Shown one piece after another: positions 10,088 to 30,518 of a stretch of DNA of 64,000 nucleotides. The notes under the pieces were generated by a model, which made no database searches, was not told where the DNA came from, and saw nothing but the letters and a program-made list of their open reading frames with translations. This DNA is from Rhizobiales bacterium Y(2018). GTDB lineage: Bacteria; Pseudomonadota; Alphaproteobacteria; Rhizobiales; Aestuariivirgaceae. Position 1 is the first letter of the stretch; each line of letters starts with the position of its first letter. The stretch covers positions 1 through 64,000 of the forward strand of contig SCPD01000016.1 of NCBI GenBank assembly GCA_005502925.1, given 5' to 3'. Position numbers and translations under genes: made by a program.

Positions 10088-11221
10088 ATGGCTACGCAAC
10101 GCATGATCGACTTTCTCGCCGACCGACGACCGGAGGGCCCCTGCCTCGTGGTCGACCTCGAGGTCATCCGTGACAATTATCTCCGCTTCGCCCGCGCGAT
10201 GCCGGCCACCCGCATCTTCTATGCGGTGAAGGCCAATCCGGCGCCCGAAGTGCTCTCGCTCCTGGCCGGCCTCGGCTCGTGCTTCGACACGGCCTCGGTG
10301 CCCGAGATCGAAATGGCGCTCACCGCCGGCGCCACGCCCGACCGCATCTCCTTCGGCAACACGATCAAGAAGGAGCGTGACGTCGCGCGCGCCCATCAGC
10401 TCGGTGTGTCGCTCTATGCCGTCGATTCCATCGAGGAAGTCGAGAAGGTGGCACGCGCCGCTCCTGGCTCCCGCGTGTTCTGCCGCATCCTGACCGATGG
10501 CGCCGGCGCCGACTGGCCGCTGTCGCGCAAATTCGGCTGCTCGCCCGCCATGGCGCTCGATGTGCTGACGCTTGCCCATAAGCTCGGCCTCCATGCCTAT
10601 GGCGTCTCCTTCCATGTCGGCTCGCAGCAGACGAAGACGGACGGCTGGGATTCGGCGCTGGCGCAGTCGGCCGATATCTTCCGCACGCTCTCCGATCGCG
10701 GCATCACGTTGTCGATGGTCAATCTCGGCGGCGGCTTCCCGACCCGTTACCTCAAAGAGGTTCCGGGCGTGCCGGCCTATGCCCAGGGCATCGAGCAGGC
10801 GCTCGCCAAGCATTTCGGCAATGCCATTCCGGAAACGATCATCGAGCCGGGCCGTGGCATGGTCGGCAATGCCGGCGTGATCAAGGCGGAAGTCGTGCTG
10901 GTGTCGAAGAAGCAGGTCGAGGACAAGGCCCGCTGGGTCTATCTCGACATCGGCAAGTTCGGCGGCCTCGCCGAGACGATGGAGGAAGCGATCCGCTATC
11001 CGATCCTCTCGGCGCGCGACGACGACCAGGTGGGTCCCTGCATCATCGCCGGGCCGACCTGCGACAGCGCCGACGTGCTCTATGAAAAGACGCCCTATGA
11101 TCTGCCGCTGTCGCTCACCGTCGGTGACGAAGTGCTGATCGACAATACGGGCGCCTATACGACGACCTATTCGGCGATCGCGTTCAACGGCTTCCCGCCG
11201 CTGGCGACCTACATCATCTAA
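10088..11221 (+). CDS. Ornithine/lysine decarboxylase, PLP fold type III
   Basis: This enzyme of 377 aa decarboxylates ornithine to putrescine or lysine to cadaverine. It has the alanine-racemase-like barrel with PLP Lys48 in YAVKANP, HVGSQ (about 177), a glycine-rich phosphate loop NLGGGFPTRY (about 214), EPGRGMVG (about 257) and the catalytic CDSAD after GPT (about 323). GGGGAG at 10073-10078 sets the start. It is the entry step of the polyamine genes that follow and sits behind a structured leader RNA, so post-transcriptional control is likely. Substrate choice is not resolved. Confidence 0.9.
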   Translation: MATQRMIDFLADRRPEGPCLVVDLEVIRDNYLRFARAMPATRIFYAVKANPAPEVLSLLAGLGSCFDTASVPEIEMALTAGATPDRISFGNTIKKERDVARAHQLGVSLYAVDSIEEVEKVARAAPGSRVFCRILTDGAGADWPLSRKFGCSPAMALDVLTLAHKLGLHAYGVSFHVGSQQTKTDGWDSALAQSADIFRTLSDRGITLSMVNLGGGFPTRYLKEVPGVPAYAQGIEQALAKHFGNAIPETIIEPGRGMVGNAGVIKAEVVLVSKKQVEDKARWVYLDIGKFGGLAETMEEAIRYPILSARDDDQVGPCIIAGPTCDSADVLYEKTPYDLPLSLTVGDEVLIDNTGAYTTTYSAIAFNGFPPLATYII

Positions 11222-16157: not shown

Positions 16158-17192
16158 CTAGCTGAAGGGCGTCCAGATGACTTGATCGATACGGGTGGCG
16201 CCGGTCGCCAGCATCACCAGGCGGTCCAGCCCGAGCGCCACGCCGGAGGCTTCCGGCATATGCTCCAACGCCTGAAGAAATGCCTCATCGATCGGGTAGC
16301 GCTCCCCATAAAGCTTCTGCTTCAGCGCCATATCAGCTTCGAAGCGGCGGCGCTGCTCGATCGGATCGGTCAGCTCGCCGAAGCCATTGGCGAGTTCGAC
16401 CCCCGCCGCATAAAGCTCGAAGCGCTCGGCGATGCGCGGATCGCGTGGGCTGACCCGCGCCAGGGCCGCCTCGACGGCGGGATATTCGAAGAGCACGGTC
16501 GGCCGGCCCTGCCCCAGATGCGGCTCGACCCGTTCGACCAGGATGCGGCTGAAGATGTCGGACCAGGAATCGTCGGCCGCAAAGCTCACCCCTTGCGCCC
16601 TGGCCTGGACGGCGAGCGCCTCACGATCGGCCCCACGCGCGCTCAAGGTCGTAAGAAGGTCGATGCCGGCATAACGCTGGAAGGCATCAGCGACGCTCAG
16701 ATATTCGGCTTCCCCCAGGGGATCGGCGACCTTGCCGCGCCAAGCGAGCTTGTTCCCCGTTTCGCCCGCCGCAAGCTTCAGCATCTCGACCGTATCGACG
16801 ATGATCCGCTCATAGGGCTCGCCGACCCGGTACCATTCGAGCATGGTGAATTCCGGCGCATGGAGCGGCGTGCGCTCGCGGTTGCGGAAGCAATGGACCA
16901 TGCTGAAAATGCGTTTCTCACCGGCGGCGAGCAGCTTCTTGCAGGCGAATTCGGGCGAGGTGTGGAGGTAACGGGCCTCGCTGGACCCGTCCGGATTGAT
17001 CAAGGATGCCGTAAAGGCATGGAGATGGGTCTCATTGCCGGGCGAGACCTGGAGCGCCCCGCAATCGACCTCGATGAAACCCTGTTCGGCAAACCAGGCC
17101 CGGATACGCGCCAGGATGCGGCCCCGGGCCATCAGGAACGGCCGGCGGTCGGCATGGATATCGGCGCGCCACCAGGGCGGATTAGGGTTCAA
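16158..17192 (-). CDS. epmA: Elongation factor P--(R)-beta-lysine ligase EpmA
   Basis: This is a class II lysyl-tRNA-synthetase-like protein of 344 aa, without the anticodon-binding domain. It attaches beta-lysine to EF-P. Class II motifs are in order: motif 1 around FIEVDCGALQVSPGNE (about 36-51), motif 2 FRNRERTPLHAPEFTMLEWY (about 102-121) and motif 3 GVALGLDRLVMLATG (about 316-330). The substrate gene efp is divergent and adjacent, which confirms the assignment. The aminomutase gene epmB, which makes beta-lysine, is not in the window. Confidence 0.93.
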   Translation of the reverse strand: MNPNPPWWRADIHADRRPFLMARGRILARIRAWFAEQGFIEVDCGALQVSPGNETHLHAFTASLINPDGSSEARYLHTSPEFACKKLLAAGEKRIFSMVHCFRNRERTPLHAPEFTMLEWYRVGEPYERIIVDTVEMLKLAAGETGNKLAWRGKVADPLGEAEYLSVADAFQRYAGIDLLTTLSARGADREALAVQARAQGVSFAADDSWSDIFSRILVERVEPHLGQGRPTVLFEYPAVEAALARVSPRDPRIAERFELYAAGVELANGFGELTDPIEQRRRFEADMALKQKLYGERYPIDEAFLQALEHMPEASGVALGLDRLVMLATGATRIDQVIWTPFS

Positions 17193-17286: not shown

Positions 17287-17859
17287 GTGGCCAAGATCAT
17301 CGCAAGCGCCGTGCGTAAAGGCAATGTCATCGAACATGAGGACGGGAAGCTCTATGTCGTCCTGAAGGCCGAGAGCTTCCACCCCGGCAAAGGCACCCCC
17401 ACAACCTCGATCGACATGCGCCGCATCTCGGACGGCGTCAAAACCGTGGTGCGCTACAAGACCACCGACCAGATGGAACGGGCTTTCGTCGAGACCCTGG
17501 CGTTCAACTATCTCTACCAGGACGGCGACCAGTATGTGTTCATGAATCCGGAGAACTTCGAGCAGATCCATCTGCCGGCCGACCTCATCGGCGATGGGGC
17601 CGCCTATCTCCAGGAAAACATGGAATGCATGATCGCGCTGTTCAACGGCGTGCCGATCACCATCGAACTGCCGCAGCGCGTGACGCTCGAGATCGTCGAC
17701 ACCGAGCCCGTCATCAAGAACCAGACGGCGGCCTCCTCTTTCAAGCCGGCGATGCTGTCCAACGGCGTGCGCACCGCGGTGCCGCCCCATATCGCCACCG
17801 GCACCCGCGTGGTGATCGCGACCGAAGACGGCTCTTACGTCGAGCGCGCCAAGGACTGA
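17287..17859 (+). CDS. efp: Elongation factor P
   Basis: This is a 190-aa translation factor that rescues ribosomes stalled at polyproline stretches. It has three beta domains; the modification loop reads HPGKGT with Lys35, the site that EpmA aminoacylates. The C terminus [19 protein letters not shown] is highly typical. The start codon is GTG at 17287 after AGAGAG; no better ATG exists. The gene is divergent from epmA and ends with an intrinsic terminator. Confidence 0.95.
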
Positions 17860-17885
17860 GTTTGGCCACAGGCTCGATTTTCCAG

Positions 17886-17909
17886 GGCCGCCCGACCGGG
17901 CGGCCTTTT
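17886..17909 (+). terminator. Intrinsic terminator of efp
   Basis: GGCCGCCC (17886-17893) and GGGCGGCC (17898-17905) form a perfect 8-bp stem with loop GACC, followed by TTTT. It stops plus-strand transcription from efp and also reaches the stop codon of the convergent lyase gene. Confidence 0.8.
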
Positions 17910-19420
17910 CATTTGAGGAGGACGTGCCGGACTGCGGCGAGCGCTTTCCCCTCGCGCACGAGATCCGACACTCTTTCGATGTCCTCCGCCATGCTGCGGT
18001 CATCGTCGAGCGGGGCCACGACGCTGCGCATGAGATCGTGCAGCGCCGTGGCCACTGGCGCCACCCGCGGGAGGTCGCGCATGTCGAGCGCCTGCGCCGA
18101 GACGATCATCTCGCAAGCGAGAACCTGTCGCAGATAGTCGAGCTGCTGCACGGCCCGGCGCACACTCACTGGCGTGAAGGGCGCCTGGTCCTCCACGCTG
18201 TCGAAGGTGTTGTCGTCATTGGACACGGGATCGGAGAAATAACGGACCTCGCGGCTGAGCGTATGCGCGGTCATGCCGATGAGGCCTAAGCCCACCCGTG
18301 TCGTTCCGTGGCGGGAGAAACGCCCCGCGAGGCCCGAAAGCTCCTCCTGCATCATGCGCACCGTGCGCTCCGATGAGAGCGTCGCGACTTGCGCGATAGC
18401 GAGCCGCAACGCGTCGAAGGATATCGCAAGGCCCGGGGTGTGGAAGTTGCCGGTCGACAGGACCGTGTCGTCATCGGTGATGATGAGCGGGTTGTCGGCG
18501 GCGCTGTTCAGCTCCACCTCGATATGCGGCCGGACGAAATCGATCGTCGCCCGCACGGCGCCATGCACCTGCGTCCCGCAGCGCAGGCTGAGCGGGTCCT
18601 GCACGCGGCGCGGCGCGTCGGGCTCGAAAAGCTGCGAGCCCTGCAGCATTTTCCGCAGCGACGCGGCCGCTGCCTGCTGTCCCGGAGCGGCACGCGCCGC
18701 CGCCACGCGCGGGTCGAAGGGACTGGGATTACCACGGAAGGCCTCGAAGGAGAGAGCCAGCACCGCATCGGCAAGCTCGATGACATCGATGATGTCGGTC
18801 AGGACGAGCGCGCCGAGGCCGACACTGATCGCATTGGCGCTGCACAGAGCGAGCCCTTCCTTCTCGACGAGATCGACGACCGGAATGCCGGCGCGGCGCA
18901 TCGCTTCACCGCCGGCGAGAATCTCGCCTTCATATTCCGCACGGCCTTCTCCCATCAGCGGCAAGGCCATATTGGCGCAGAGAACGAGATCCGAGGCGCC
19001 GACCGAGCCCACTTGTGGGACGAGCGGATGTACACGCTTGGCGAGCATGGCGAGCTGTGTATCGATGACGATCGGCCGGACTCCGGCGCCGCCTTGCGCC
19101 AGACCGGCGGCACGCGCGAACAAGGCTGCACGAACAGTGGTGGAGTCAAAATACCCGCCGCCGCCCGCGGCCCGGCCCCGCACCACCGCCGCGCTGTAGC
19201 TCGCCCTCTCGGCGGCGCTGATTTCCATGGTGACACGACCGCCCAGCCCACGCGTCACCCCATAGACGGGGCGATCCTCGCGCGACCAGCGCTCGATCAT
19301 GTCTCGCGCGCTGTCGAGCCGCCCTCGTGCCGGCGCGCCGAGCGCGACGGGGGTGTTGGATCTGGCCACGGCGACCACGTCAGCGATGGTGAGCTGATCC
19401 TGCCCAAGGACGATCGTCAT
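17909..19420 (-). CDS. Aromatic amino acid lyase family protein with altered MIO triad
   Basis: This histidine/phenylalanine ammonia-lyase homologue has 503 aa. Conserved parts are YGVTRGLGG (catalytic Tyr53), GSVGASDLVL, ELNSAADNPLI and GNFHTPGLAISFDALR. The MIO electrophile is normally built from Ala-Ser-Gly; here the Gly codon is missing and the string is Ala142-Ser143-Asp144, one residue shorter than in HutH. MIO formation is therefore doubtful. Start 19420 has GGGAGAA upstream. It is the last gene of a seven-gene operon with a racemase-like protein and an amino-acid importer, so it probably eliminates an amine from an imported amino acid. The substrate is unknown. Confidence 0.8.
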   Translation of the reverse strand: MTIVLGQDQLTIADVVAVARSNTPVALGAPARGRLDSARDMIERWSREDRPVYGVTRGLGGRVTMEISAAERASYSAAVVRGRAAGGGGYFDSTTVRAALFARAAGLAQGGAGVRPIVIDTQLAMLAKRVHPLVPQVGSVGASDLVLCANMALPLMGEGRAEYEGEILAGGEAMRRAGIPVVDLVEKEGLALCSANAISVGLGALVLTDIIDVIELADAVLALSFEAFRGNPSPFDPRVAAARAAPGQQAAAASLRKMLQGSQLFEPDAPRRVQDPLSLRCGTQVHGAVRATIDFVRPHIEVELNSAADNPLIITDDDTVLSTGNFHTPGLAISFDALRLAIAQVATLSSERTVRMMQEELSGLAGRFSRHGTTRVGLGLIGMTAHTLSREVRYFSDPVSNDDNTFDSVEDQAPFTPVSVRRAVQQLDYLRQVLACEMIVSAQALDMRDLPRVAPVATALHDLMRSVVAPLDDDRSMAEDIERVSDLVREGKALAAVRHVLLK

Positions 19421-19479
19421 CTTGTTCTCCCGAATCTCAGGCCAGATTCCGATATCCGCGACCGGCAAGCAAGGACTGC

Positions 19480-20715
19480 CTATATCGAGATGATACCTCG
19501 ATCCCCCACAACCCGCAGACTGGTGCCGTGTTTCGCGGAGCGCTCGGCCAGATCCTCGATCATGCCGCGGGCGAGTGCGGGTGACGCGGGCACCGGAACG
19601 AGACGCTCGTGATAATTGCGGTCCTGCAATCCCTGCTCACCGCCCAGGACAACCGGTACGAGGTCGACCGAGCGAATCTGCCCCGTCCCGTCGAAAGAAC
19701 ACGTCGCCACCACGCTTTTCCAGACATCCGGCGATCCCCAATCGTCCTCGCCCTCGGGCAAATGGAACAGGAAGTTCCCGAGCCCGAAGAAGATCGGCGC
19801 TCCACGGTAGATTTCGACCGGCTGCAGCACCGGCGCGCCGTGGCTCACGAACACATTCGCACCCGCATCGACGCAGGATCGTGCGAAGAGCTGAACCCAC
19901 TCGGGAACATCGCGCCAGCTGGGTTCCCAGTGGTGGTGATGAAGATAAGCGATGACGAAGGCGCCGTCCGATGCGGCCTTGCGGATCGTCTCGAGCTGCC
20001 CCCGCAAGCTCGCCTGGTCGATGACGATCCGGCGGCAGTTCGCGGGCGACCGCCGGAAGGTCGTTCCGTAGAAATCGATCTCGTCAGGCGATGTCAGTTC
20101 GCGCGGGTCATCCGGCTGGCCGTAATTGGCGCGCTCCATCGGGTTGCTCTGAAACGTCTCCTGGATGGACACGAGATTCGCGAAGTTTTCATGATCGACC
20201 TCGAACACCCGAAAGACGTCGAGCTTGTTCACCCCTGGCCGCGCCGGCCTGGTCTTCGTCGCATTGTCGGCGAACATGATTGCCGGTCCCGGCCCGGCAT
20301 CCATCGCGACAAGTGCGACTTTCCGGTCATTGATCTTCTTCATTCCCGCTAGGCGCGCGCCCGTCGCATCACCCCCGATGCCGGCATGGAGAAAATCACG
20401 GCGGGCCACTTCCTCAAGCGTGGACAGCACGCCAGGAGGACCGAGATCGAAGGCATGGTTGTTGGAAAGCGCCAGGGCATCGAAGCCCATATCCTTCAAG
20501 CAGTCCAGCACGGCCGCCGGCGAGCAGCCGAAGGCCGATCCCTTCAGCGGCCAGCCGCCGTGCCGGCCGAGAATGGTCGTCTCGAAATTCGTGAAGGCGA
20601 CATCGGCTTTCCGGGTCAGCTCCTTGACGGCCGCAAAACCTTGATCGGTGACGTGACGCACATCGTGCAGAATGAGCGACTGTCCGGTTACAGCGAGAGT
20701 GAAAGGCGAAGACAT
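19480..20715 (-). CDS. CapA family (metallophosphoesterase-fold) protein
   Basis: This protein of about 411 aa belongs to the CapA/PgsA group, whose best-known members act in poly-gamma-glutamate synthesis. The fold motifs are VTGQSL near the start, FTNFETTILG (about 41), LSNNHAFDLG (about 82), AYLHHHHWEP (about 256) and FVSHGAPVLQ (about 289), which supply likely metal ligands. No membrane anchor or signal peptide is seen, unlike secreted CapA. The gene sits in an operon of amino-acid import and modification, so a hydrolytic role on a glutamyl- or peptide-linked substrate is possible; no function is assigned. Confidence 0.75.
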   Translation of the reverse strand: MSSPFTLAVTGQSLILHDVRHVTDQGFAAVKELTRKADVAFTNFETTILGRHGGWPLKGSAFGCSPAAVLDCLKDMGFDALALSNNHAFDLGPPGVLSTLEEVARRDFLHAGIGGDATGARLAGMKKINDRKVALVAMDAGPGPAIMFADNATKTRPARPGVNKLDVFRVFEVDHENFANLVSIQETFQSNPMERANYGQPDDPRELTSPDEIDFYGTTFRRSPANCRRIVIDQASLRGQLETIRKAASDGAFVIAYLHHHHWEPSWRDVPEWVQLFARSCVDAGANVFVSHGAPVLQPVEIYRGAPIFFGLGNFLFHLPEGEDDWGSPDVWKSVVATCSFDGTGQIRSVDLVPVVLGGEQGLQDRNYHERLVPVPASPALARGMIEDLAERSAKHGTSLRVVGDRGIISI

Positions 20716-20784
20716 GCTACGAGGCCCTTGAGTCCACAAAGATGATGGCGCCCTGGCGGGCGCCACCGGTGTGTTGATTGCTGG

Positions 20785-21633
20785 CTAGTTCTTGAGCCGC
20801 GGCGCTATGTCGACCCCGAACCATTTCACGCTGAGCTTGGCGAGCGTGCCATCGGCAATGCTCTCCAGAAGCGCCTTGTCGAAGGCCGCGATCAGGTCCG
20901 TATCCTCCTTGCGCAGACCGATTCCGGCGCCTGGTCCCCAGGGACCTCCATCGAGTTGCGGGCCGAAGAACGTCACATCTTTGCCTTCGGGGGAGTCCAG
21001 GAACTGCTTCCAGGTGAGATAATCGCCGAGCCCCCCATCGATACGCTCCGAGATGATGTCCAGCTGGATGTTCTCCTGGCTGTCATAGCTGCGCACCGTC
21101 GCCACATCACCGAACAGCTCGTTCACGACGACCTCGGAATTCGACGAACGCAGCACGCCCAGGGTTCTGCCGGTCACGCTTTCCTTGAGCTTCGCGATCG
21201 TCTCCTGCTTCGCCGCATCCATTTCGGTGAGGTCGAGCTTGGCCGTGGTGTCCATCAGCGGCACAGGGATGCTCTTGCGCATGACGATCCCGTTCGGCGC
21301 CACGGCATAAGGGATCGAGAACGCGATGGATTTCTTGCGCTTCTCGGTTATCGACATGCCGGAGATGATGGCGTCGTATTTCTTCACCAGGAGGCCGGGA
21401 ATGATGCCGTCCCAGTCCTGCGAGACGAATTTGCACTCCATCTTCATGCGGGCGCAAAGGTCCGTGCCCACGTCGATGTCGAAGCCGACAAGCTGTCCGT
21501 TCGCATCGATGTAGTCCCAGGGCGGCGAGGCGCCCTCCGCCGCGATCGTGATCGCCTTGCGCTCGCTCGCCTGCCCGAGGCCGATACTCATCAGAATGGC
21601 CGCTACCGCGACAACGAAACCATATTTCCTCAT
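20785..21633 (-). CDS. Amino-acid ABC transporter substrate-binding protein
   Basis: This periplasmic family 3 binding protein has 282 aa with a signal peptide ending near GQAS. The ligand site follows the lysine/arginine/ornithine- and octopine-type pattern: EGASPPWDYIDANGQLVGFDIDVG split across residues 33-56, DWDGIIPGLLVKKYDAI, and RSSNSEVVVN. The start at 21633 has GGGGAG upstream. Two permeases and an ATPase in the same operon complete the importer. A ligand with an alpha-amino acid head group is likely. Confidence 0.85.
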   Translation of the reverse strand: MRKYGFVVAVAAILMSIGLGQASERKAITIAAEGASPPWDYIDANGQLVGFDIDVGTDLCARMKMECKFVSQDWDGIIPGLLVKKYDAIISGMSITEKRKKSIAFSIPYAVAPNGIVMRKSIPVPLMDTTAKLDLTEMDAAKQETIAKLKESVTGRTLGVLRSSNSEVVVNELFGDVATVRSYDSQENIQLDIISERIDGGLGDYLTWKQFLDSPEGKDVTFFGPQLDGGPWGPGAGIGLRKEDTDLIAAFDKALLESIADGTLAKLSVKWFGVDIAPRLKN

Positions 21634-21665: not shown

Positions 21666-22784
21666 TCAAGCGACGTAGATCCGTCTGAGATGGCCTCCCA
21701 GACCGCAGCTGACGCCGACTTCGTCCGTGTCCCAGGCCGCGGCGAGTTCCGTAAGCGTGACGCGATCCGCACCTGAGCTTCCCAGCAGGAGCACTTCATC
21801 GCCGAGCTCCGCCGCGGGAACTCCAGTGATGTCGATGCGCAGATGTTCGAGATGTGCCGGCGGAACGATCGGCACGCGTTTGCCTTTGACGAGAGCTGAC
21901 ATCCCCGGCCGCAAATGCCGAGGAATTCCCTGTCCCCAACCGATCCCGAGCACGGCCAGCCGCATGTCTTTCCGGTATCCCGGCAAGGCCGGGGGCGGCC
22001 CCATGCTGTCATCACATTGCTTTATCGCGATGATGCGCGCCTTGATCGCCTTGAGCGCCGGCCGCACGGTTATGTTCCGGCGTCCGTGATGCGGGCCGGT
22101 CAATCCGAACACCAGCGCGCCGGGATCGACCGCATCCATATCCATTCCCGGATACGACAGCAGGCTGTCGCTGCTCGATATCATGACCGTTTCAGGAAGC
22201 CGCCCATCGCGGGCGAGTTCGTCGAGAAGGATCGTCAGCCGCGCGAACTGCTCCGCCGCCGATGAGCCGGCAACGCCGAATTCACTGAGATGCGCGTAGA
22301 GCCCATCGATCACGAGATTGCCGTGCGCGGCGCAGATTTCAAGCAACCGGGCGATCTGCGAGGGCGCGGCGCCGTTGCGCCAGAGCCCGATATCGACCTT
22401 CACGAAGGCGCGTAATGGCCTGCCGGTTGAGACCCATCCCTCCAGATCCTCCTCTCCGGAAATCGAGATCGTCAGGTCAAGATCCCGAACGAGATCGACA
22501 TCCCAGGGGCCAATGCCCGGATACATGAGGATCGGCTTGCCCGGCGCTCCCCTGCGCACCGCTGACGCGTCGGCCAAGGAAACCACGCCGAAGGCATCGA
22601 TGCCCTCATCCGCCAGGATGGCGGCCGCCCTCTCCGCCCCGCATCCATAGGCGTCGTGCTTCAGACAGGCGAAGATCTTCGTGCCCGTTCCGACAGCCGC
22701 TCTGATGGTGCGACAATTGGAGGCGATCGCCGACAGGCTGATCTCGCGCCACGCGGTCTCGCCCATGAGCTCCTCACGATCCAT
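21666..22784 (-). CDS. Alanine-racemase-like PLP protein lacking two signature residues
   Basis: This fold type III PLP protein has 372 aa. The Schiff-base Lys42 is in ACLKHDAYGCG, and VKVDIGLWRNG, YAHLSEFG and SSSDSLLSYPG match alanine racemase motifs. Two hallmarks differ: the Arg that contacts the pyridine nitrogen (in the motif VRPG) is Asp220 (VDPGALVFG), and the catalytic Tyr of the motif IGYADG is Trp283 (IGWGQG). An acidic residue at the pyridine nitrogen would favour a quinonoid intermediate, unlike real racemases. It overlaps the downstream permease start by 11 bases in the operon order. It is probably not an ordinary alanine racemase. Confidence 0.8.
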   Translation of the reverse strand: MDREELMGETAWREISLSAIASNCRTIRAAVGTGTKIFACLKHDAYGCGAERAAAILADEGIDAFGVVSLADASAVRRGAPGKPILMYPGIGPWDVDLVRDLDLTISISGEEDLEGWVSTGRPLRAFVKVDIGLWRNGAAPSQIARLLEICAAHGNLVIDGLYAHLSEFGVAGSSAAEQFARLTILLDELARDGRLPETVMISSSDSLLSYPGMDMDAVDPGALVFGLTGPHHGRRNITVRPALKAIKARIIAIKQCDDSMGPPPALPGYRKDMRLAVLGIGWGQGIPRHLRPGMSALVKGKRVPIVPPAHLEHLRIDITGVPAAELGDEVLLLGSSGADRVTLTELAAAWDTDEVGVSCGLGGHLRRIYVA

Positions 22785-23505
22785 GGGCCACCCGTTTCAC
22801 GGCGATGCCGTCCGGTGCGGCCTGCTTCGGCGGCGCATTCAACCAGCGAGTCTCCAGCATACGGAAGCCACTGGTGAAGACGGAGGTCAGGCCGAGATAG
22901 AGAATACCGGCGGCGATGAATATCTCGTAGGGCGCAAAAGTCTCCGAAACGAGCTTGCGCGAGAGCCCGGTGATCTCGAGCAGCGTCACGGTGCTGGCGA
23001 GCGAGCTCGCCTTCAAGAGGGCGATGACCTCATTCACATAGGAAGGAAGAATGCCTCTGAAGGCGATCGGCAGGATGATCTTGCGCTTCTGCTGAAGCGG
23101 CGTCATGCCGATCGCCTGCGCCGCATCGATCATGCCCGGCGGCACGGCCAGGATCCCGCCGCGGAAGACCTCGGTCGTATAGGCCGCACTGTTCAGCGAG
23201 AAAGCGAGAAGCGAACACCAGAACGGATCGCGCAGAACATGCCAGAGGACACTCGACCGGATGAAATCGATCTGCCCAAGCCCGTAATAGATGATGAAGA
23301 GCTGGACGAGCAGCGGCGTTCCGCGGAACACATAGGTGTAAGCGAGCACCGGCAGGGAGACCCATCTGTTGCCGGAAGCGCGCAGGAACGCCAAGGGCAC
23401 GGAAAGAACAAGACCGATGACAAGCGACGCCAAAGCCAGGATCAGCGTCAGCGGAATCCCGGAGGCGAGTGTCATCGTGCTGGTCAGGAGCAGTTCGACA
23501 TCCAT
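22774..23505 (-). CDS. Amino-acid ABC transporter permease (HisMQ type) A
   Basis: This inner-membrane permease has 243 aa with about five membrane helices. The motifs are YVFRGTPLLVQLFIIYYG (about residues 57-74) and the coupling loop IDAAQAIGMTPLQQKRKI (about 124-141). It has an extended, Pro/Ala-containing C-terminal tail. It follows the second permease by 12 bases and overlaps the racemase-like gene, which shows it belongs to one tightly packed operon. Confidence 0.87.
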   Translation of the reverse strand: MDVELLLTSTMTLASGIPLTLILALASLVIGLVLSVPLAFLRASGNRWVSLPVLAYTYVFRGTPLLVQLFIIYYGLGQIDFIRSSVLWHVLRDPFWCSLLAFSLNSAAYTTEVFRGGILAVPPGMIDAAQAIGMTPLQQKRKIILPIAFRGILPSYVNEVIALLKASSLASTVTLLEITGLSRKLVSETFAPYEIFIAAGILYLGLTSVFTSGFRMLETRWLNAPPKQAAPDGIAVKRVAHGS

Positions 23506-23517
23506 GGCGACGCTCCC

Positions 23518-24183
23518 TCAGTGCCCACGAACGGCAAAGTGCCGCTCGAGCAGGTTGAACACCACAAGCGCCAGGCTGGTCAGAAACAGATACAGCGCCG
23601 ATGCCGCCAGATAGAAGGTCAAGGGCGCCCGCATGGATCCCGCGCCGACAGCGGCGACCCGCATGATGTCGGTCAATCCGACGATCGAGATGAGTGATGT
23701 TTCCTTGATCAGGGAGAACCATTGGTTACCGAGCGCCGGCAGCGCGATACGCATCATCAGCGGCAGAATGATCAACAGCCAGGTCTGCCAGGGATGCAAG
23801 CCCAGCGATCTCGCAGCCTCGATCTGCCCGCGCGATATGCTGAGGACGGCGCCCCGGAAAATCTCGGCCGTGTAGGCGCCAAACACGATCGTCAGCGCCA
23901 GGACGCCCGCCGAAAAGGCGTTGATTTCGACATAACGGCCGAAGAATGAGCTGATGGCGACAGTGCCTCCGAAATAGATCAAGAGGATGATGAGCAATTC
24001 GGGGACGCCCCGGACAATCGTCGTATAGGCGCCGACCACGACGCGGAGCGGCGCAAAGCGCGACAGCTTGGCGGCGGCGGCCAGCAAGCCGACGACCATG
24101 CCGAGCGCTCCACTGATAAGAGCGAGCAGGACCGTGGTTTTCAGTCCTTCAACGAACTGTAGGACGAAGCCATCCATCGTCAC
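23518..24183 (-). CDS. Amino-acid ABC transporter permease (HisMQ type) B
   Basis: This inner-membrane permease has 221 aa. It carries TIVRGVPELLIILLIYFGG (about residues 54-72) and the coupling region IEAARSLGLHPWQTW (about 120-134). Its start is GTG at 24183, placed so that GTGA overlaps the ATPase stop, indicating coupled translation. An ATG two codons in (24177) is the alternative. With the other permease it forms the membrane heterodimer. Confidence 0.87.
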   Translation of the reverse strand: MTMDGFVLQFVEGLKTTVLLALISGALGMVVGLLAAAAKLSRFAPLRVVVGAYTTIVRGVPELLIILLIYFGGTVAISSFFGRYVEINAFSAGVLALTIVFGAYTAEIFRGAVLSISRGQIEAARSLGLHPWQTWLLIILPLMMRIALPALGNQWFSLIKETSLISIVGLTDIMRVAAVGAGSMRAPLTFYLAASALYLFLTSLALVVFNLLERHFAVRGH

Positions 24184-25010
24184 GAATGCCTTTCATCATG
24201 CGCCGCGAGGAAGCGGCGGAGCCCGGGCGAAGCGGGGTTCGAGAAAAATTCCCGGCTCGATCCTTCCTCTTCGATCCGCCCCTGATGCATGAAAGCCGCC
24301 CGGCTTGAAACCTCGCGCGCGAAAGCAACTTCATGGGTGACGATCATCATCGTGCGCCCCTCGCCCGCGAGCGCGGTCATCACTCGGAGAACCTCGCCCA
24401 CCAATTCCGGATCGAGAGCCGAGGTCGGCTCGTCGAAGAGAAGAAGCTTCGGCTCCATCGCGAGCGCCCGCGCAATGGCGACGCGCTGCTGCTGGCCGCC
24501 CGACAAATGACGCGGATAGGAGCCGGCCTTGTCGGAGAGGCCAACCTTCGCGAGATAACGGCGCCCGAGTTCGGCGGCGGCCTTTCGGGTGAGCCGATTG
24601 ACCAGGACCGGCCCTGCCGAAACATTTTCGAGCGCGGTCATGTGCGGCCAGAGATTGAAGCTCTGGAACACCATACCGATGGAAGCCCGAACCCGCCTGA
24701 CCTGATCATGATCGAGTATCCTGGGCGCGGAGTCGTCTTCCGAAACGGGGCGGAGCCTGAGGTGTTCGCCGTGAACCCAGATGTCGCCCTGATCAGGAAG
24801 GGTCAGAAGATTGACGCAGCGCAGGAAGGTGCTCTTGCCCGAGCCGCTGCTGCCGAGGATCGCGAGGATCTCACCGGCGGCTACGTCGAGATTCACGCCG
24901 CGCAAGACCTCGATATTGCCGAGCCGCTTTTCGATGCCGCGGGCCTGGACGCCTCCGGCCGCCGGAGCGATCTGTGATTCAGGCAACGACGAAGCCATTG
25001 CTGCACGCAT
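24180..25010 (-). CDS. Amino-acid ABC transporter ATP-binding protein
   Basis: This cytoplasmic ATPase has 276 aa, first in the operon. It shows Walker A GSSGSGKST (about residue 54), Q-loop FQSFNLWPHM, signature LSGGQQQR (about 168), Walker B LLLFDEPTSALDP (about 188-200) and the switch His in IVTHE. The first 20 residues are a variable extension, and an internal Met5 start is possible. A long inverted repeat 113 bases upstream and the divergent LysR gene suggest that the operon is induced by its substrate. Confidence 0.92.
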   Translation of the reverse strand: MRAAMASSLPESQIAPAAGGVQARGIEKRLGNIEVLRGVNLDVAAGEILAILGSSGSGKSTFLRCVNLLTLPDQGDIWVHGEHLRLRPVSEDDSAPRILDHDQVRRVRASIGMVFQSFNLWPHMTALENVSAGPVLVNRLTRKAAAELGRRYLAKVGLSDKAGSYPRHLSGGQQQRVAIARALAMEPKLLLFDEPTSALDPELVGEVLRVMTALAGEGRTMMIVTHEVAFAREVSSRAAFMHQGRIEEEGSSREFFSNPASPGLRRFLAAHDERHS

Positions 25011-25264: not shown

Positions 25265-26173
25265 ATGGTGGAAATCGCTAAGACCGGCATCACCCTTCGG
25301 CAGCTCCAGATTCTTCGAGAGGTCGTCAGAACCGGTTCGGAACGCAGTGCCGCGAAGATGCTGGAAATCACCCAGCCGGCAGTCAGCCAGCAGATCAAGC
25401 AGCTCGAAGCGATGCTCGGCGTTCAATTGTTTCTCAGGGACAAAGGAAGGCTTCAGCCGACAAGCCAGACCATGATGCTGTTCCGCGACACCGACGCCAC
25501 CTTCGTGCAGATGGAGAGGATTTCCCGAACCGTCGCGTCGCTGAAAGGTATCGAAATCGACACGATCAGCATCGCCACGCCCCACATCTTCTGTCTCGAC
25601 CTGATCCCCCGCGCACTGAAGCGGCTTCGCCCGCATCAGCCGCATATGGTCGTCCATATCAGATCCGGCGACTATCATGAGATGGCGGAGCATATCCTGG
25701 AGGGGCGCGCGGATATCGCCCTCTCGCGTCTGCCCATCGATGAGAACATATTCGATTGGGTTCCGGTCGTCACGGCGACAAATGTCTGCGTATTCCATGC
25801 CGGCCACAGATTCTCGCAAGAAGAGCTGATCACGCCCGAGGAAATGAAAGGCGAGCCGCTCATCGACGTCGATCCGCAGTTCAACTCGCAGCAGATGAAC
25901 GAAAATGCCCTGCGCTATATGGGGGTCGAGCCCTATCTCGCGATTCAAGTCGATGTCATCGGCCAGGAAGCGAGCTTCCTGGCGGCTGGGCTGGGCGTAA
26001 CGATCACCAATTCGTTTGCGGCCAGCCAGCTCAAGGCGTTCAGTCTCGAAATCCGTCCCTACGAGCCAAGCTCCCTCTACCATTACATTCTGTTCTGGCA
26101 GAAAGGCCGACGGCTTCCCGCCCTGACGGAGGCGGCGAGGGATGCGCTGGCTGCCTGCGCAAATGACGGATAA
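25265..26173 (+). CDS. LysR family transcriptional regulator
   Basis: This regulator has 302 aa. The N-terminal helix-turn-helix reads LRQLQILREVVRTGSERSAAKMLEITQPAVSQQIKQLE (in parts, residues 9-46), and the effector-binding domain (about 90-295) has the periplasmic-binding-protein fold. It is divergent from the seven-gene operon and is the obvious regulator. The coinducer is probably the imported amino acid or its product. It ends nine bases before the stop of hmuT, which is convergent. Confidence 0.9.
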   Translation: MVEIAKTGITLRQLQILREVVRTGSERSAAKMLEITQPAVSQQIKQLEAMLGVQLFLRDKGRLQPTSQTMMLFRDTDATFVQMERISRTVASLKGIEIDTISIATPHIFCLDLIPRALKRLRPHQPHMVVHIRSGDYHEMAEHILEGRADIALSRLPIDENIFDWVPVVTATNVCVFHAGHRFSQEELITPEEMKGEPLIDVDPQFNSQQMNENALRYMGVEPYLAIQVDVIGQEASFLAAGLGVTITNSFAASQLKAFSLEIRPYEPSSLYHYILFWQKGRRLPALTEAARDALAACANDG

Positions 26174-26182
26174 GGCAGAGAC

Positions 26183-27091
26183 TCAGTCACCGATCTCCGG
26201 ATAAAGCGCCTTGGCGAGATCGCGGACGGCTTGCGCGGTGCGCGGTCCGAAGCCGATCATGTAAGGCCCGTCGAGCACGATCAGCGCGCGGTCGCGGGCG
26301 GCGGGCGTCTGCTTGAGCGCCGGATTGGCGAAGACGAAGTCGGCTGTCGGGCCGCCCTTGCCATCGCTCATCAACAGAACGACTTCGGGCGCGGCCTTCA
26401 GCAGGAATTCCTCAGAGGCCGCCTTGTAGCCCTTCATGCCGCCCAGCGGATTGATGCCACCGGCATAGTGTATGACGGCATCGGCCGCGGTGTCGGCGCC
26501 GGCGGCGCTCAGGCGGGTGAGGCCATGGAAGAACACAACCTTCTTGCGCTTCTCGGGCGGGATCGCGGCGGTGAGATTCGCCGCCGCGGTAAAATCAGCG
26601 CGCACGGTTTGCGCGAGCTCCCGTCCCTTCTCCTCAAGCTTCAGGGCGGCGGCGATGAGCGCGATCTTCTTCTCGATGCCTTCGAGCGAATTGTCCTCCG
26701 GCACCAGAAGGAGCGGAACGGCCGTCGTCTTCAGGACCTCGACCACCGGTGGCGGGCCGATATCCTCGGAGGCGATGATGAGATCGGGCCCGAGCGCCAG
26801 CACACCCTCGGCCGAGAGCGAGCGGCGATAGCCGACATTGGGTTTGGAAAGCGTCGCCTCGGGATAACGGCTGCCGCGATCGACGCCGACGACACGGTCG
26901 CCGGCGCCAAGCGCATAGAGGATCTCGGTGACATCCGGGCCGAGGCTCAGAATGCGCTCGGCCTTGCCCGGGTCGACCGCGCGGCCGGCGGCGTCGGTCA
27001 GCGCCTGCGCGTGGGCCTGCGTCATCAAGACCGCCCAAAACACGCCGATGCAGAGCGCCGAAGCGCGCCGGAGATGAGTGAAGTATTTCAA
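26183..27091 (-). CDS. hmuT: Haem/hemin ABC transporter substrate-binding protein HmuT
   Basis: This periplasmic haem-binding protein of about 302-305 aa belongs to the cobalamin/siderophore cluster (BtuF-like fold). Features are a signal peptide ending AHAQ, RILSLGPDVTEILYALGAGDRVVGVD split over residues 47-72, VGYRRSLSAEGVLALGPDLIIAS and the family phrase AGGINPLGGMKGYK. The start is uncertain: TTG at 27091 has AGGGG at a better distance than TTG at 27100, and no ATG is available. It is divergent from the receptor gene. HmuU and HmuV are not in the window. Confidence 0.85.
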   Translation of the reverse strand: MKYFTHLRRASALCIGVFWAVLMTQAHAQALTDAAGRAVDPGKAERILSLGPDVTEILYALGAGDRVVGVDRGSRYPEATLSKPNVGYRRSLSAEGVLALGPDLIIASEDIGPPPVVEVLKTTAVPLLLVPEDNSLEGIEKKIALIAAALKLEEKGRELAQTVRADFTAAANLTAAIPPEKRKKVVFFHGLTRLSAAGADTAADAVIHYAGGINPLGGMKGYKAASEEFLLKAAPEVVLLMSDGKGGPTADFVFANPALKQTPAARDRALIVLDGPYMIGFGPRTAQAVRDLAKALYPEIGD

Positions 27092-27148
27092 TAGAATCAA
27101 GCCCCTGAAGAGAAATGCGGAGAATGTGATTCAATCATCACATAATAC

Positions 27149-27175
27149 TTGACTATATTAGTCGGAAATTAATAT
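27149..27175 (+). promoter_or_regulatory. hmuR promoter with overlapping palindrome
   Basis: A promoter-like TTGACT (27149-27154) and TAATAT (27170-27175) lie in the hmuT/hmuR divergent region. The palindrome GACTA-TAT-TAGTC (27151-27163) overlaps the -35 box, the right place for an iron-responsive repressor such as Fur, Irr or RirA. Spacing of 15 bp is short and the consensus of none of these regulators is matched exactly. Confidence 0.4.
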
Positions 27176-27279
27176 GCAAGGGATGCGCAGGCCGACGGAA
27201 GCTTGGACGCGTCAAACGAGCCCGCCAGACCCTATCGGTTTCAGCCAGCCATTCATCCTCATCAAAAGGAGAAGTGGCC

Positions 27280-29427
27280 GTGCCACGGACCATCAAGACC
27301 CTGCTGCTGGCAGGAACCGCCATCACATCGATCCTCATCCTCACCACCTCGCCGCTGGCGGCGCAGGAGCAGCGCAAGGTGAAACCTCCGCAGGAGGAAC
27401 AGGAGCCCTCCGAGGCCAAGGCGAACCGCGAAACCGAGCTCGACCTCATCACCGTCACCGCGACGCTGATCGACGCGCCGGTGATCGATTCACTGTCGGG
27501 GACGAGTTATGTCGGCGAAAAGGATCTCGAGCGCATCCAGGCCAATACGCCGGCCGACATCTTCCGCACCACGCCGGGCGTCGGCGCCACGATGAATGGC
27601 GACGATCCGGCAACCGCCATCAATATCCGCGGCCTCCAGCAATATGGCCGCGTCGTCGTTACCCTCGATGGCGCGCGCCAGGATTACTGGCGGGTCGGCC
27701 ATGGCTCGGGCTCCTTCTATGTCGAGCCGGACCTGCTCAAGGCCGTCACCGTCATCCGGGGCCCCGTCTCCAACGCCTATGGCTCGGGCGGCATCGGCGG
27801 TCTCGTCGCCTTCGAAACCAAGGATGCCGGCGATTTCCTCAAATCCGACGAGCAATATGCGATCAGCGAAAAGGTGGGCTACGAGACCAATGGCGAGGGC
27901 TGGACGACCAGCACCACGGCGGCGATCCGGCCGCACAAGGCCCTCGATATCATCGGCAATGTGAACTGGCGCGACCGCGACACTTATGACGACGGCAATG
28001 GCGATGAGGTGCGCTGGACCGGCGAGGAAGTGACGAGCGGCTATGGCAAAGCGACCTTCCGCCCGGCCGATGGCCATGAGATCAAGCTGGGCGCCATCCT
28101 GCAACGTTATGACGACTATGTCTCAGGTTCGAGCGGCTCCAATTCGGCGACACTCAGCCGCTATGACGCCGACACCGTCAACGACACCTATACGGCGAAA
28201 TATACCTATTCCGATCCCGATGACCGGCTGCTCGACTATTCCTTCACCGCCTATCACAACCAGACGAAAGCCGAGCAGACGCAGGTCTGGCCACCGGCGG
28301 CGGCCGGCAATTTCCGCTATTACGATGTGCGCACCACCGGCGCCTCGGGCGACAATTCCTCACGCTTTGATGCCTTCAGCCTCGCCCATACGCTGACCTA
28401 TGGCGGCGACTATTATTTCCTCGAAGGCGAATCCTCGGCCGCCCATTTCGGCGCCGGCGAGGCTCAGGCCTATGGCGCCTTCATGCAGTGGATGGGCGAA
28501 TACGGCTCCTGGCTCGAGCTCATCGCGGCCGTGCGGTATGACGGCTATCAGCTCGATGGCGAGACCAAGGCCACGCAGGCGACGCCGCCCGAGGAGGAGT
28601 CGCTCAATGGCGACAGGGTGTCGCCGCGCTTCACGGTCGGCGTGACACCCTTCACCGGCTTCCAGCTGTTCGGCGGCTATTCGGAGGGCTATCGGGCGCC
28701 CGGACTTCAGGATGTGTTCCGCGGCACCGGCGCCCATGGCAGCGCCGACAGCTATGTGCCGAATTTCAACCTGAAGCCGGAAGTGGCCAAGAGCTGGGAA
28801 GGCGGCGTCAATCTCAAATATGACGGGCTCTTCGCCGAGAACGATCTGCTACGCGGCAAGTTCACCGCCTTCTACACCAAGGTCCATGACTATATCGAAA
28901 CCGACCTCACGGTCCTGCCGCGCATGGCCGACAATATCGGCACCGCCCGTCTGCAAGGCGTCGAGGCGGAGCTCATCTACGATCTCGGCTGGGGCTTCAT
29001 CAACCTGACCGGCGCCCTCATCGATGCTGAGCTGATCGACACGAAGAATCCCAAATATGACGGCCAGCCCCTGGAAAACGCGCCGCTCGACAAATTCTCG
29101 GCGACGCTCGGCTTCCGCGCCTTCGAGGATCAGCTGGTCTTCGGCGGCCAGTTCCTGGCGGTCGGCGAAGTCAAACGCACGCAGCGCTCGTCCGGCACGA
29201 ATCCGGGCCAGGTCGACGGCCCGGCGCAATATAGCGATGGCTACGAGCTGGTGAATCTCTTCGCCAACTGGACGGTCGCGGAGAATCTGAAGCTCGATCT
29301 CGCGGTCGAGAACCTGTTCGACGCCGCCTATACCGATCCGCAGAGCGCCTGGAGCTACACATCCGATGTCGAGCAAGGCAAGGGCCGCACCTTCAAGATC
29401 GGCTTGACGACGCGGTTCGGCGGTTGA
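27280..29427 (+). CDS. hmuR: TonB-dependent haem/hemoglobin receptor HmuR
   Basis: This is an outer-membrane receptor of about 715 aa. After a signal peptide ending in PLAAQ, a plug domain holds VTATLIDAPVID (TonB-box region) and EKDLERIQANTPADIFRTTPGV; NIRGLQQYGRVVVTLDGARQ and VIRGPVSNAYGSGGIGG are typical. The barrel follows, with FGGYSEGYRAPGLQDVFR and PEVAKSWEGGVNLK, and ends in aromatic-terminated strands (GLTTRFGG). GTG 27280 is preferred because AAGGAG (27266-27271) is eight bases away; GTG 27274 is too close. Iron limitation is the expected signal. Confidence 0.9.
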   Translation: MPRTIKTLLLAGTAITSILILTTSPLAAQEQRKVKPPQEEQEPSEAKANRETELDLITVTATLIDAPVIDSLSGTSYVGEKDLERIQANTPADIFRTTPGVGATMNGDDPATAINIRGLQQYGRVVVTLDGARQDYWRVGHGSGSFYVEPDLLKAVTVIRGPVSNAYGSGGIGGLVAFETKDAGDFLKSDEQYAISEKVGYETNGEGWTTSTTAAIRPHKALDIIGNVNWRDRDTYDDGNGDEVRWTGEEVTSGYGKATFRPADGHEIKLGAILQRYDDYVSGSSGSNSATLSRYDADTVNDTYTAKYTYSDPDDRLLDYSFTAYHNQTKAEQTQVWPPAAAGNFRYYDVRTTGASGDNSSRFDAFSLAHTLTYGGDYYFLEGESSAAHFGAGEAQAYGAFMQWMGEYGSWLELIAAVRYDGYQLDGETKATQATPPEEESLNGDRVSPRFTVGVTPFTGFQLFGGYSEGYRAPGLQDVFRGTGAHGSADSYVPNFNLKPEVAKSWEGGVNLKYDGLFAENDLLRGKFTAFYTKVHDYIETDLTVLPRMADNIGTARLQGVEAELIYDLGWGFINLTGALIDAELIDTKNPKYDGQPLENAPLDKFSATLGFRAFEDQLVFGGQFLAVGEVKRTQRSSGTNPGQVDGPAQYSDGYELVNLFANWTVAENLKLDLAVENLFDAAYTDPQSAWSYTSDVEQGKGRTFKIGLTTRFGG

Positions 29428-29441
29428 AGGAGTTGATCTTG

Positions 29442-30518
29442 ATGAATGAACTCACCTGTGAAGCCCGTATCGCGATGCCGTCGGCGGCCGACTATATCGA
29501 CCGCATCACCGACCGGCTGTTCAGCTTCGATGCGGTGGTGACGACCAAGGGCGGCGGGATCGGCTTCCGCTTTCCGGCCGGGCAGGCGACGCTCGACCTT
29601 TCACCCGATCTCCTCACCGTGCGGCTTGCGGCCGCCGATGCCGACCGGCTGGCGCGGCTCAAGGACATCCTGGCGACGTCGATCGAGCTTCATGCGAAGC
29701 GGGCCAGCCCGCAGATCGTGTGGGAAGGCGATCTCGCCGGCGACAGGAGGCTCGCGCAGTTCCGCGAGATGCGCGTCGCCGAGATCCATGATCTGACGCC
29801 GCATATGCGGCGGGTCAGGCTTTCGGGTGACAATCTCGCGCGTTTCGCCGACTTCGAGGGCATGCATGTACGGGTGCTGTTCCCGACGGCGCACGTGCCG
29901 GAGCCTTTATGGCCCGAGGCCGGGCCGAACGGCCTGCCGGTCTGGCCGGCGGAGGAACGCCGCACCCCTGCCCGCGTCTATACGATCCGCCGGCTCGATG
30001 TCGCCGCGGGATTCATGGACATCGACTTCGTGATGCATGGCGATGAGAGCATCGGCTCGGGCTGGGCGGCGGCGGCGCGGCCTGGCAATGTCGTCGGCAT
30101 CATGGGTCCGCTCGGACGGCCGGTGCGCAAGGCCGAATGGCTTGTGCTGGGCGCCGACGAGACCGGGCTTCCGGCGCTCGGGCGCATCCTCGAAAGGCTG
30201 CCGGCCGACACCAAGGGCCTCGCCTTCATCGAAGTCGCGGACAGGGACGAAGAACAGATCATCGCCCATCCATCCGGCTTCGAGCTGCGGTGGATCCATC
30301 GCAACGGAACAGCGCCCGGCGAACACCGGCATCTGGCCGAAGCCGTCTGCGCGGTGGAGCGCCCAGCGAGCGTGAAATGCTTCAGCTGGTTCGCCGCCGA
30401 AGCGGAAGCGGCCAAGACGGTGCGCGAGTTTTGGCGCGGCAAGCTGGGATTGGGCCGCGATGAAACGCTGGCCGCCGCCTACTGGCGGCGCGGCGCGTTA
30501 GGGCCGATGGCGGGGTAA
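29442..30518 (+). CDS. Siderophore-interacting flavoprotein with N-terminal DUF2218 domain
   Basis: This cytoplasmic ferric reductase-type protein has 358 aa. Residues 1-95 resemble the small DUF2218 domain; about 110-358 form the SIP/FAD-binding part, with MRRVRLSG, RVYTIRRLD (FAD site), GIMGPLGRP, LGADETGLPALGRIL and a C-terminal CFSWFAAEAEAAKTVR followed by YWRRGA, all typical of SIP proteins. GAAGGAG precedes the ATG at 29442. It is 14 bases after hmuR, so it likely releases iron from the imported ligand. Confidence 0.85.
   Translation: MNELTCEARIAMPSAADYIDRITDRLFSFDAVVTTKGGGIGFRFPAGQATLDLSPDLLTVRLAAADADRLARLKDILATSIELHAKRASPQIVWEGDLAGDRRLAQFREMRVAEIHDLTPHMRRVRLSGDNLARFADFEGMHVRVLFPTAHVPEPLWPEAGPNGLPVWPAEERRTPARVYTIRRLDVAAGFMDIDFVMHGDESIGSGWAAAARPGNVVGIMGPLGRPVRKAEWLVLGADETGLPALGRILERLPADTKGLAFIEVADRDEEQIIAHPSGFELRWIHRNGTAPGEHRHLAEAVCAVERPASVKCFSWFAAEAEAAKTVREFWRGKLGLGRDETLAAAYWRRGALGPMAG

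Follow-up and report, generated by a model that had tools for sequence, protein, structure and literature searches.

An alanine racemase-fold protein with Asp and Trp in place of the catalytic Arg and Tyr lies in a mobile amino acid import cassette and may have non-canonical chemistry

What does a protein of the alanine racemase (Alr) fold do once both the arginine that contacts the PLP ring nitrogen and the tyrosine that serves as second base have been replaced? The question is raised by a gene at 21666-22784 on the minus strand (372 aa, ATG start) of the DNA analysed here, the first 64,000 nucleotides of contig SCPD01000016.1 from Rhizobiales bacterium Y(2018) (henceforth referred to as the window). 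The first-pass annotation had reported that the PLP lysine is kept as Lys42 (minus-strand codon 22659-22661) and that Asp220 (22125-22127) and Trp283 (21936-21938) stand in the places of the Arg and the Tyr, respectively. Pfam recognises both domains of the fold (Ala_racemase_N, 4.1e-41; Ala_racemase_C, 1.9e-17), and in alignment with the solved racemases 4y2w, 4ecl and 2dy3 the query v-d-p-g falls under v-r-p-g or i-r-v-g and the query g-w-g-q-g under g-y-a-d-g, gap-free at both places. The AlphaFold monomer (mean pLDDT 91.7; the model holds neither PLP nor a partner subunit) aligns over 360 residues (Z 39.8, 2.3 Å) with the catalytic domain of the serine racemase VanTg (4ecl), its closest solved fold at 23% identity, and over 357 residues with the Alr chains 1sft (Z 38.4) and 1bd0 (Z 38.2), and the two-domain Alr fold is thus present. 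Since the alignments are ungapped and the structures match, the three residues sit where the first-pass annotation had put them. In Geobacillus numbering, taken across the three solved racemases and 21 canonical Alr rows, Lys42, Arg136 and His165 correspond to Lys39, Arg136 and His166, whereas Arg219 and the second base Tyr265 are absent, with Asp220 and Trp283 at the aligned places. Tyr46 we take to be the Tyr43 of Alr, and the loop at residues 312-313 presumably corresponds to Met312-Asp313. What is shared with Alr (EC 5.1.1.1) is thus the whole fold, the PLP lysine, Tyr46, Arg136 and His165; what differs, besides Arg219 to Asp and Tyr265 to Trp, is Met312-Asp313-x, which has become Leu-Glu-His, and the Asn next to the PLP phosphate loop (20/21 canonical rows), which is Ser. 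In Alr, Arg219 is joined to the same hydrogen-bond network as Tyr265 and His166. Tyr265 and His166 are hydrogen-bonded to one another (PMC6411801 and PMC3962088, in the parts available). With all three residues in one network the loss of one may entail the loss of another, so that a change of both, on which the first-pass annotation had built its case, is less independent than it sounds. The roles it had given them, Arg219 as disfavouring the quinonoid and Tyr265 as the second base, agree with the available text of PMC3485190 and PMC6411801.

Although the best named models for the protein are those of alanine and serine racemases, it scores slightly below the cut-off of the NCBIfam alr equivalog (162.2 bits against 168) and far below that of VanT (168.3 against 460), and VanTg itself keeps both the Arg and the Tyr. 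The housekeeping role can be ruled out, because a normal, canonical Alr (L001) is encoded elsewhere in the source genome. With Tyr and Arg absent, a shortfall, if a small one, against the alr cut-off, a separate Alr in the genome and an operon that contains an importer, it is very improbable that this is an ordinary alanine racemase and its annotation right; the database name is probably wrong. The same name is attached to most family members in the plasmid records listed, and among 15 family loci with gene tables compared, 9 bear a peptidoglycan-biosynthesis GO term; the active site and the operon both speak against that annotation. Conversely, retention of a normal Alr in the genome makes a different role for the present protein plausible, and non-canonical chemistry is a reasonable reading of its residues, even though the decarboxylation, elimination and one-base epimerisation proposed at first pass are indistinguishable from sequence. 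A second Ala_racemase_N match lies in the window at 10151-10726 (plus strand, E 1.1e-7), and the source genome has 11 such matches in all.

We next consider whether the substitution is a property of a lineage. From 110 collected rows, 103 were placed in a tree (a short search with SH-aLRT support only, in which the program flagged long branches) after removal of seven, namely the duplicates L009, L002, L010 and L095, the partial L100 and L102, and the frameshifted L048. At the Arg219/Tyr265 positions 65 rows have Asp+Trp and 21 have Arg+Tyr; of the remainder, eight have Cys at the Arg position and nine have other pairs. All 65 Asp/Trp (D/W) rows, together with one Halomonas row (Asn/Thr), form a single 66-row clade (SH-aLRT 100), bearing out the suggestion that Asp/Trp might define one. 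This clade is nested in a clade of 81 rows (SH-aLRT 99), none of which has Arg219 or Tyr265 and in which the Arg219 position is D, C or N throughout. The PLP lysine is present in 103/103 rows and His165, Arg136 and Lys129 in 65/65 D/W rows, and members as distant as 34% identity keep Lys42, Arg136, His165, Asp220 and Trp283 without exception (n=65). Ungapped alignments, structure comparison and clade together rule out chance or alignment error as the source of Asp220 and Trp283. Aestuariivirga sp. YIM B02566 has a close relative of 89% identity (L062). Against this orthologue dN/dS is 0.22, a value that none of the other cassette genes exceeds (seven compared, range 0.04-0.22) yet well below 1. 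Given this value and the confinement of the residue pair to one clade, the Asp220/Trp283 state is fixed and not drift. Strong matches (E up to 1e-30) occur in 2/69 genomes of the family, the source genome and Aestuariivirga sp. YIM B02566, and equally strong ones, of 29-35% identity, in 16/385 genomes of the class; ten phage records contain distant matches, the five listed ones at 25-28% identity. The same figures bear on the idea of a non-catalytic PLP or amino-acid binder, for instance a regulator or a decaying paralogue. Two catalytic residues are lost, the adjacent HAL-like protein (see below) also lacks its catalytic Gly, dN/dS is the highest of the cassette and one relative (L048) looks frameshifted; but five active-site residues invariant across 65 such divergent rows, and a dN/dS of 0.22, make this decidedly unlikely.

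If the second base has gone, something may have replaced it. Cys40, His311, Glu313 and Arg316 are found in 65/65 D/W rows and His314 in 63/65, and across the 81-row clade Glu313 is present in 80 and His314 in 78, whereas the 21 canonical rows have neither (position 313 is Asp in 20 and Asn in 1). The chief hint in the sequence that something stands in for the Tyr is this near co-occurrence of Glu313-His314 (codons 21843-21848, minus strand) with the loss of Arg and Tyr. The first-pass annotation had conceded that a clean alignment might find the true Arg and Tyr elsewhere; for the two motif residues this was not supported, and what stands of it is only that Tyr88 and Tyr163 are conserved in 65/65 D/W rows and 0/21 canonical rows (Tyr270 in only 27/65), so that a tyrosine acting from another place would be possible. 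A claim that the D/W clade has no other conserved Tyr is, for the same reason, false. 4y2w, a normal Alr, has a Tyr at the place of Tyr163. On this evidence the protein could still racemise or epimerise a cationic amino acid, its second acid-base moved most likely to the Glu313-His314 pair on the neighbouring loop, or possibly to Tyr163, and convert an imported D-form to the L-form that arginase and other host enzymes then degrade. Against such a relocation, one further row (L011) keeps the Arg, has Phe for the Tyr and Asn-His at 313-314, and His314 is therefore not strictly tied to loss of both residues. In addition, the lysine, broad-spectrum and histidine racemases Lyr, Bar, BsrV and 5zl6 share the fold (Z 35-38) and take substrates beyond alanine; according to the available part of PMC3485190, Lyr and Bar keep the catalytic Lys, the Tyr and both Arg, which the present protein does not, so lysine and broad-spectrum racemases changed their substrate range with both residues in place. 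In wider Tyr-less groups of the fold (L030-L032, L034-L036, L039-L044, L052, L119) the Arg is replaced by Cys, Asn or Asp and most members have an xLEH motif, and no characterised member was found among them in this analysis; hydantoinase A/B genes lie beside L052 (annotated) and L119 (read by eye; L119 occupies the genome position of L032).

What the protein does is best judged from its operon, which lay outside the view of the first-pass annotation. On the minus strand, tightly packed, follow an amino acid ABC importer ATPase of HisP type (24180-25010), a HisQ/ArtQ-like permease (23518-24183, overlapping the ATPase gene by 4 bases), a HisM/ArtM-like permease (22774-23505, sharing 11 bases with the beginning of the Alr-like gene), the Alr-like gene, a family 3 substrate-binding protein (20785-21633), a CapA/PGA_cap protein akin to MslH, a Ca-dependent peptide epimerase (19480-20766, where relatives suggest the ATG at 20715 as the true start) and a histidine ammonia-lyase (HAL)-like protein (17909-19468). 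Neighbour functions rest on family models and some open reading frames were read by eye. A divergent LysR-type regulator (25265-26173, plus strand) is also present in all 16 other loci of the same type compared (clade A, below), and a terminator-like hairpin at 17884-17907 (plus strand; a pattern match only), between the HAL-like gene and the convergent gene at 17287-17859, is the probable end of the operon. That convergent gene (plus strand) is EF-P-like by eye and stands beside a gene for an EpmA-like EF-P lysine aminoacylase (16158-17192, minus strand; NCBIfam genX above cut-off), both of them also present in L062. Adjoining the LysR gene, 26183-30518 reads by eye as haem/siderophore binding protein, TonB-dependent receptor and siderophore-interacting-protein-like frames. 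The HAL-like protein has GSVGAS-DL in place of GSVGASGDL, that is, the Ala-Ser-Gly motif without the MIO Gly, both in the window and in the L062 copy (L062:11318-12874); its dN/dS is 0.13. Several other HAL residues also differ, and of the loci compared none but the window and L062 has this gene next to the Alr-like one; it occurs in 1/55 genome loci. A reading as histidine catabolism is weakened on these grounds. In the same genome, the HAL paralogue L143 has the same Gly gap and L139 the normal motif.

To what substrate does the importer point? Family models place the binding protein, permeases and ATPase in the Lys/Arg/Orn/His group, and the closest solved relatives of the binding protein are NocT (nopaline; E 7e-64) and OccJ (octopine; 1e-55), then LAO (5e-44). 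LAO binds arginine's free amino group through Ser72 and Asp161, and NocT, with Gly and Ser at those places, does not bind it (PMC5740067 and PMC4192606, as far as the available text of each goes). The window protein has Ser, Arg and Asp of the LAO type at the decisive places, as do most of the 55 copies (Ser and Arg in 55/55, Asp in 48/55, near copies included); the seven with Ser for Asp are clade B proteins of 31-35% identity, where the alignment is less sure. It does not match the opine signature of NocT (Gly97-Met117-His170-Ser207), and against Ser91-Asn111-Thr163-Ala164-Asn202 of OccJ it has Ser-Asn-Asn-Ser-Asp at 94, 114, 165, 166 and 204, or 2/5. A classical N-substituted opine is disfavoured as substrate, because these residues fit a free amino group and because PLP needs a primary amine. 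The position of NocT Tyr39, which stacks on the guanidinium, is Ser in clade A, Phe in nearly all of clade C and Tyr in 6/7 clade B proteins; in NocT, OccJ and LAO a Tyr at this place stacks on arginine. Our best guess, resting on the LAO-type residues for the amino group and on replacement of the aromatic stacker in clade A and mostly by Phe in clade C, is that the substrate would be a free alpha-amino acid and, in clades A and C, one whose side chain is not simply that of arginine. A few Mesorhizobium loci have arginase and ornithine cyclodeaminase nearby; in all, arginase is encoded in 3/55 loci and ornithine cyclodeaminase in 4/55 (L061, L080, L112 and, at the edge, L115). As L080 is a near copy of L112, these neighbours amount to three lineages, and the arginase neighbours are mostly in clade B. 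At L061 the arginase/cyclodeaminase pair lies on the opposite strand and, read by eye, has a regulator of its own, and CtlX and a DDAH-like protein also occur at two near-identical arginase/cyclodeaminase loci. We estimate roughly that, with one such pair in a genome of 7 Mb, about 0.2% of random points would have it within 8 kb. The importer group, the arginase and cyclodeaminase neighbours in three lineages and the stacking Tyr in the clade where arginase mostly occurs all favour a racemase with a relocated base. The imported compound seems to be a primary alpha-amino acid of the arginine/ornithine/histidine/opine class.

Among solved proteins, the CapA protein is closest to MslH chains (E about 2e-35); its score for NF038314 is 132.4 against a cut-off of 700. 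In the lasso peptide epimerase MslH, calcium is bound by Glu44, Asn87, His259 and His261, and the dyads His88/Asp91 and His295/Asp11 serve the two faces (PMC10406935, available part). All 24 CapA copies aligned keep the four metal ligands and the His88/Asp91 dyad, and in all 24 Asp11 is replaced by Gln and His295 by Pro. Identity as a full MslH-type epimerase is ruled out, the His295 place being Pro in the window and His in chain 8gq9; 8ith has Asn at 295, and a His295Asn variant structure is described in the available part of PMC10406935. The cassette thus pairs two proteins of two-base epimerase families, each without one known base, which speaks against plain racemisation by known mechanisms and counts against a relocated base in the Alr-like protein as well.

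Distribution of the cassette was assessed at 55 genome loci, found through the family alignment and two peptide patterns (counts depend on contig ends) and searched for partner genes with 19 queries at bit-score cut-offs of our choosing, some loci being short. The window binding protein is matched in 42, CapA in 17, a LysR of the window type in 17 and an AraC of another type in 17, and CapA and the AraC/SAM-enzyme module are never found together. Three arrangements can be told apart. Clade A, the window type, consists of LysR, ATPase, two permeases, Alr-like protein, binding protein and CapA, and the Alr-like protein and CapA are the only enzymes common to all its copies; intact relatives outside the genus are 64-68% identical, and the arrangement is found, for example, on Shinella, Agrobacterium fabrum, Roseateles-labelled and Ti plasmids. 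Clade B (Mesorhizobium, Brucella daejeonensis) has the Alr-like protein with a different importer and mostly CapA plus either an M20 amidohydrolase or peptidase T. Clade C has importer and Alr-like protein without CapA, often with AraC, MFS and helix-turn-helix genes. The window CapA is 72-75% identical to that of five Mesorhizobium clade B loci, where the Alr-like proteins are only 46-48% identical; in Brucella L085 the values are 51% and 43%. On pTiB230/85 of Rhizobium sp. B230/85, 253 bases separate the end of the cassette from traR, which follows in the same orientation; the annotation of this plasmid also assigns two genes to the octopine/nopaline dehydrogenase family. The cassette is mobile. 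Its partners are not obligatory, since 12/55 loci have neither binding protein, CapA nor AraC/SAM module (L103-L105 among them still have importer ATPase and permeases; nine match none of the 19 queries, one of these on a 3.5 kb contig) and Rhizobium etli plasmids have importer and CapA in a cluster without the Alr-like gene. In the conjugative R. etli CFN42 p42d (L135:4446-15058) and in L136, L137 and L138, that cluster has LysR, permeases, NocT-like binding protein and CapA, and stands beside an AraC-MFS-helix-turn-helix set, a protein of 468 aa and a SAM-enzyme-like protein of 337 aa, neither of these two proteins with a Pfam match. The clade C Alr-like genes are linked at 11/55 loci to a SAM-dependent-methyltransferase-like protein (L076:595-1578, alignment A3), whose AlphaFold model (pLDDT 76, moderate) resembles class I methyltransferases, for example CmoA and the CysG N-terminal domain. 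The azetidine carboxylate synthase motif PFNxxGN was not seen in alignment A3, and a search of the source genome, run without a positive control, did not find the SAM enzyme. In seven Mesorhizobium loci (L069, L070, L072, L073, L074, L079, L101) the D/W gene is an orphan, the queries matching neither importer nor CapA; in L069 and L101 it lies, by eye, between a short MucR-like frame and a 1271-aa frame on the opposite strand. On the Mesorhizobium sp. AR07 plasmid (L048:6953-8073), importer, binding protein and CapA are annotated and the Alr-like gene only as a C-terminal fragment; it looks broken or frameshifted, because of this annotation and because it matches in two pieces. A literature search, most subscription journals being outside its reach, found no publication on the Alr-like/importer/CapA cassette.

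Of the readings considered, we favour, with a probability of about 0.35, that the Alr-like protein is a single-face, D-specific PLP enzyme that would no longer work by the two-base Lys39/Tyr265 mechanism. In outline, the importer would bring in the amino acid, and Lys42 would form the aldimine and, on the face used for D-amino acids, would be the one base remaining of those in Alr; loss of the Arg would leave the PLP ring free to act as a full electron sink, and the retained His165, freed from the Tyr, would act on the substrate side chain. The likeliest outcome would be a D-specific single-face reaction of retro-aldol or beta-elimination type, as in engineered Alr Y265A, with CapA carrying out a further single-base or hydrolytic step. 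In Alr the Y265A change lowers racemisation 4x10^5-fold and confers a D-specific aldolase activity that is ascribed to the freed His166, and work on R219E points to side reactions once the ring nitrogen is protonated (PMC3962088 and PMC6411801 for the former and PMC6411801 for the latter, in their available parts). Replacement of both Tyr and Arg with His165 kept in 65/65 D/W rows, in spite of the loss of its Tyr partner, would fit such a reaction, and so would a CapA that is one dyad short, a binding protein suited to a free NH3+ and a normal Alr elsewhere. The likeness to Y265A lies in a lost Tyr base and a kept His, whereas the natural family has Trp in place of Ala and has lost the Arg too; against the single-face reading, Trp is bulkier than Tyr and, unlike the Ala, leaves the pocket unopened. 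The side chain of Asp, shorter than that of Arg or Glu, may fall short of the pyridine nitrogen, and the sister groups with Cys or Asn at the Arg place show that the Arg can be lost without an acid in its stead. The Glu313-His314 pair may, moreover, be a new second base, Tyr163 being likewise conserved, and arginase and ornithine cyclodeaminase need a plain L-amino acid, the product of a racemase. A racemase with a relocated base, although tentative, fits these L-specific neighbours better and is nearly as likely as the single-face enzyme. Asp220 also invites comparison with fold III decarboxylases, as ornithine decarboxylases have an acid near the pyridine nitrogen (in the mammalian enzyme a Glu at the equivalent place; PMC6411801, available part), and a DAO-superfamily FAD oxidase adjoins the gene in L104 and lies 3.7 kb away in L084. 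The 50 matches listed in each of two structure comparisons are racemases and one engineered-protein entry, with no decarboxylase among them. A decarboxylase-like or transaminase-like enzyme seems to us unlikely. The probability left after these five readings goes to none of them being right.

At the level of the whole cassette, the nearest known counterparts are the Noc and Occ operons of Ti plasmids, with which it shares a LysR regulator, an ABC importer whose binding protein groups with NocT and OccJ, carriage on plasmids and, once, a place directly before traR; it differs in having no opine oxidase and in binding-site residues that suit a free amino group, not an N-substituted opine. We offer as a speculative and rather doubtful proposal that it is an opine-like nutrient route without opine oxidase, in which a NocT-type importer would supply single-base enzymes of the Alr and CapA/MslH folds that dismantle a D-configured or modified metabolite of arginine/ornithine type, the same metabolite, through LysR, switching on traR and conjugation on the Ti plasmid of Rhizobium sp. 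B230/85. Should the Alr-like protein be a natural single-base Alr, it would parallel in nature the textbook conversion of the racemase into an aldolase by Y265A, and would offer a test of the way in which Arg219 and Tyr265 maintain reaction specificity; should the Glu-His pair be a new second base, it would show how a racemase rebuilds its mechanism. In either case the cassette points to an amino acid that many plant-associated bacteria can import, by means of genes spread on plasmids.
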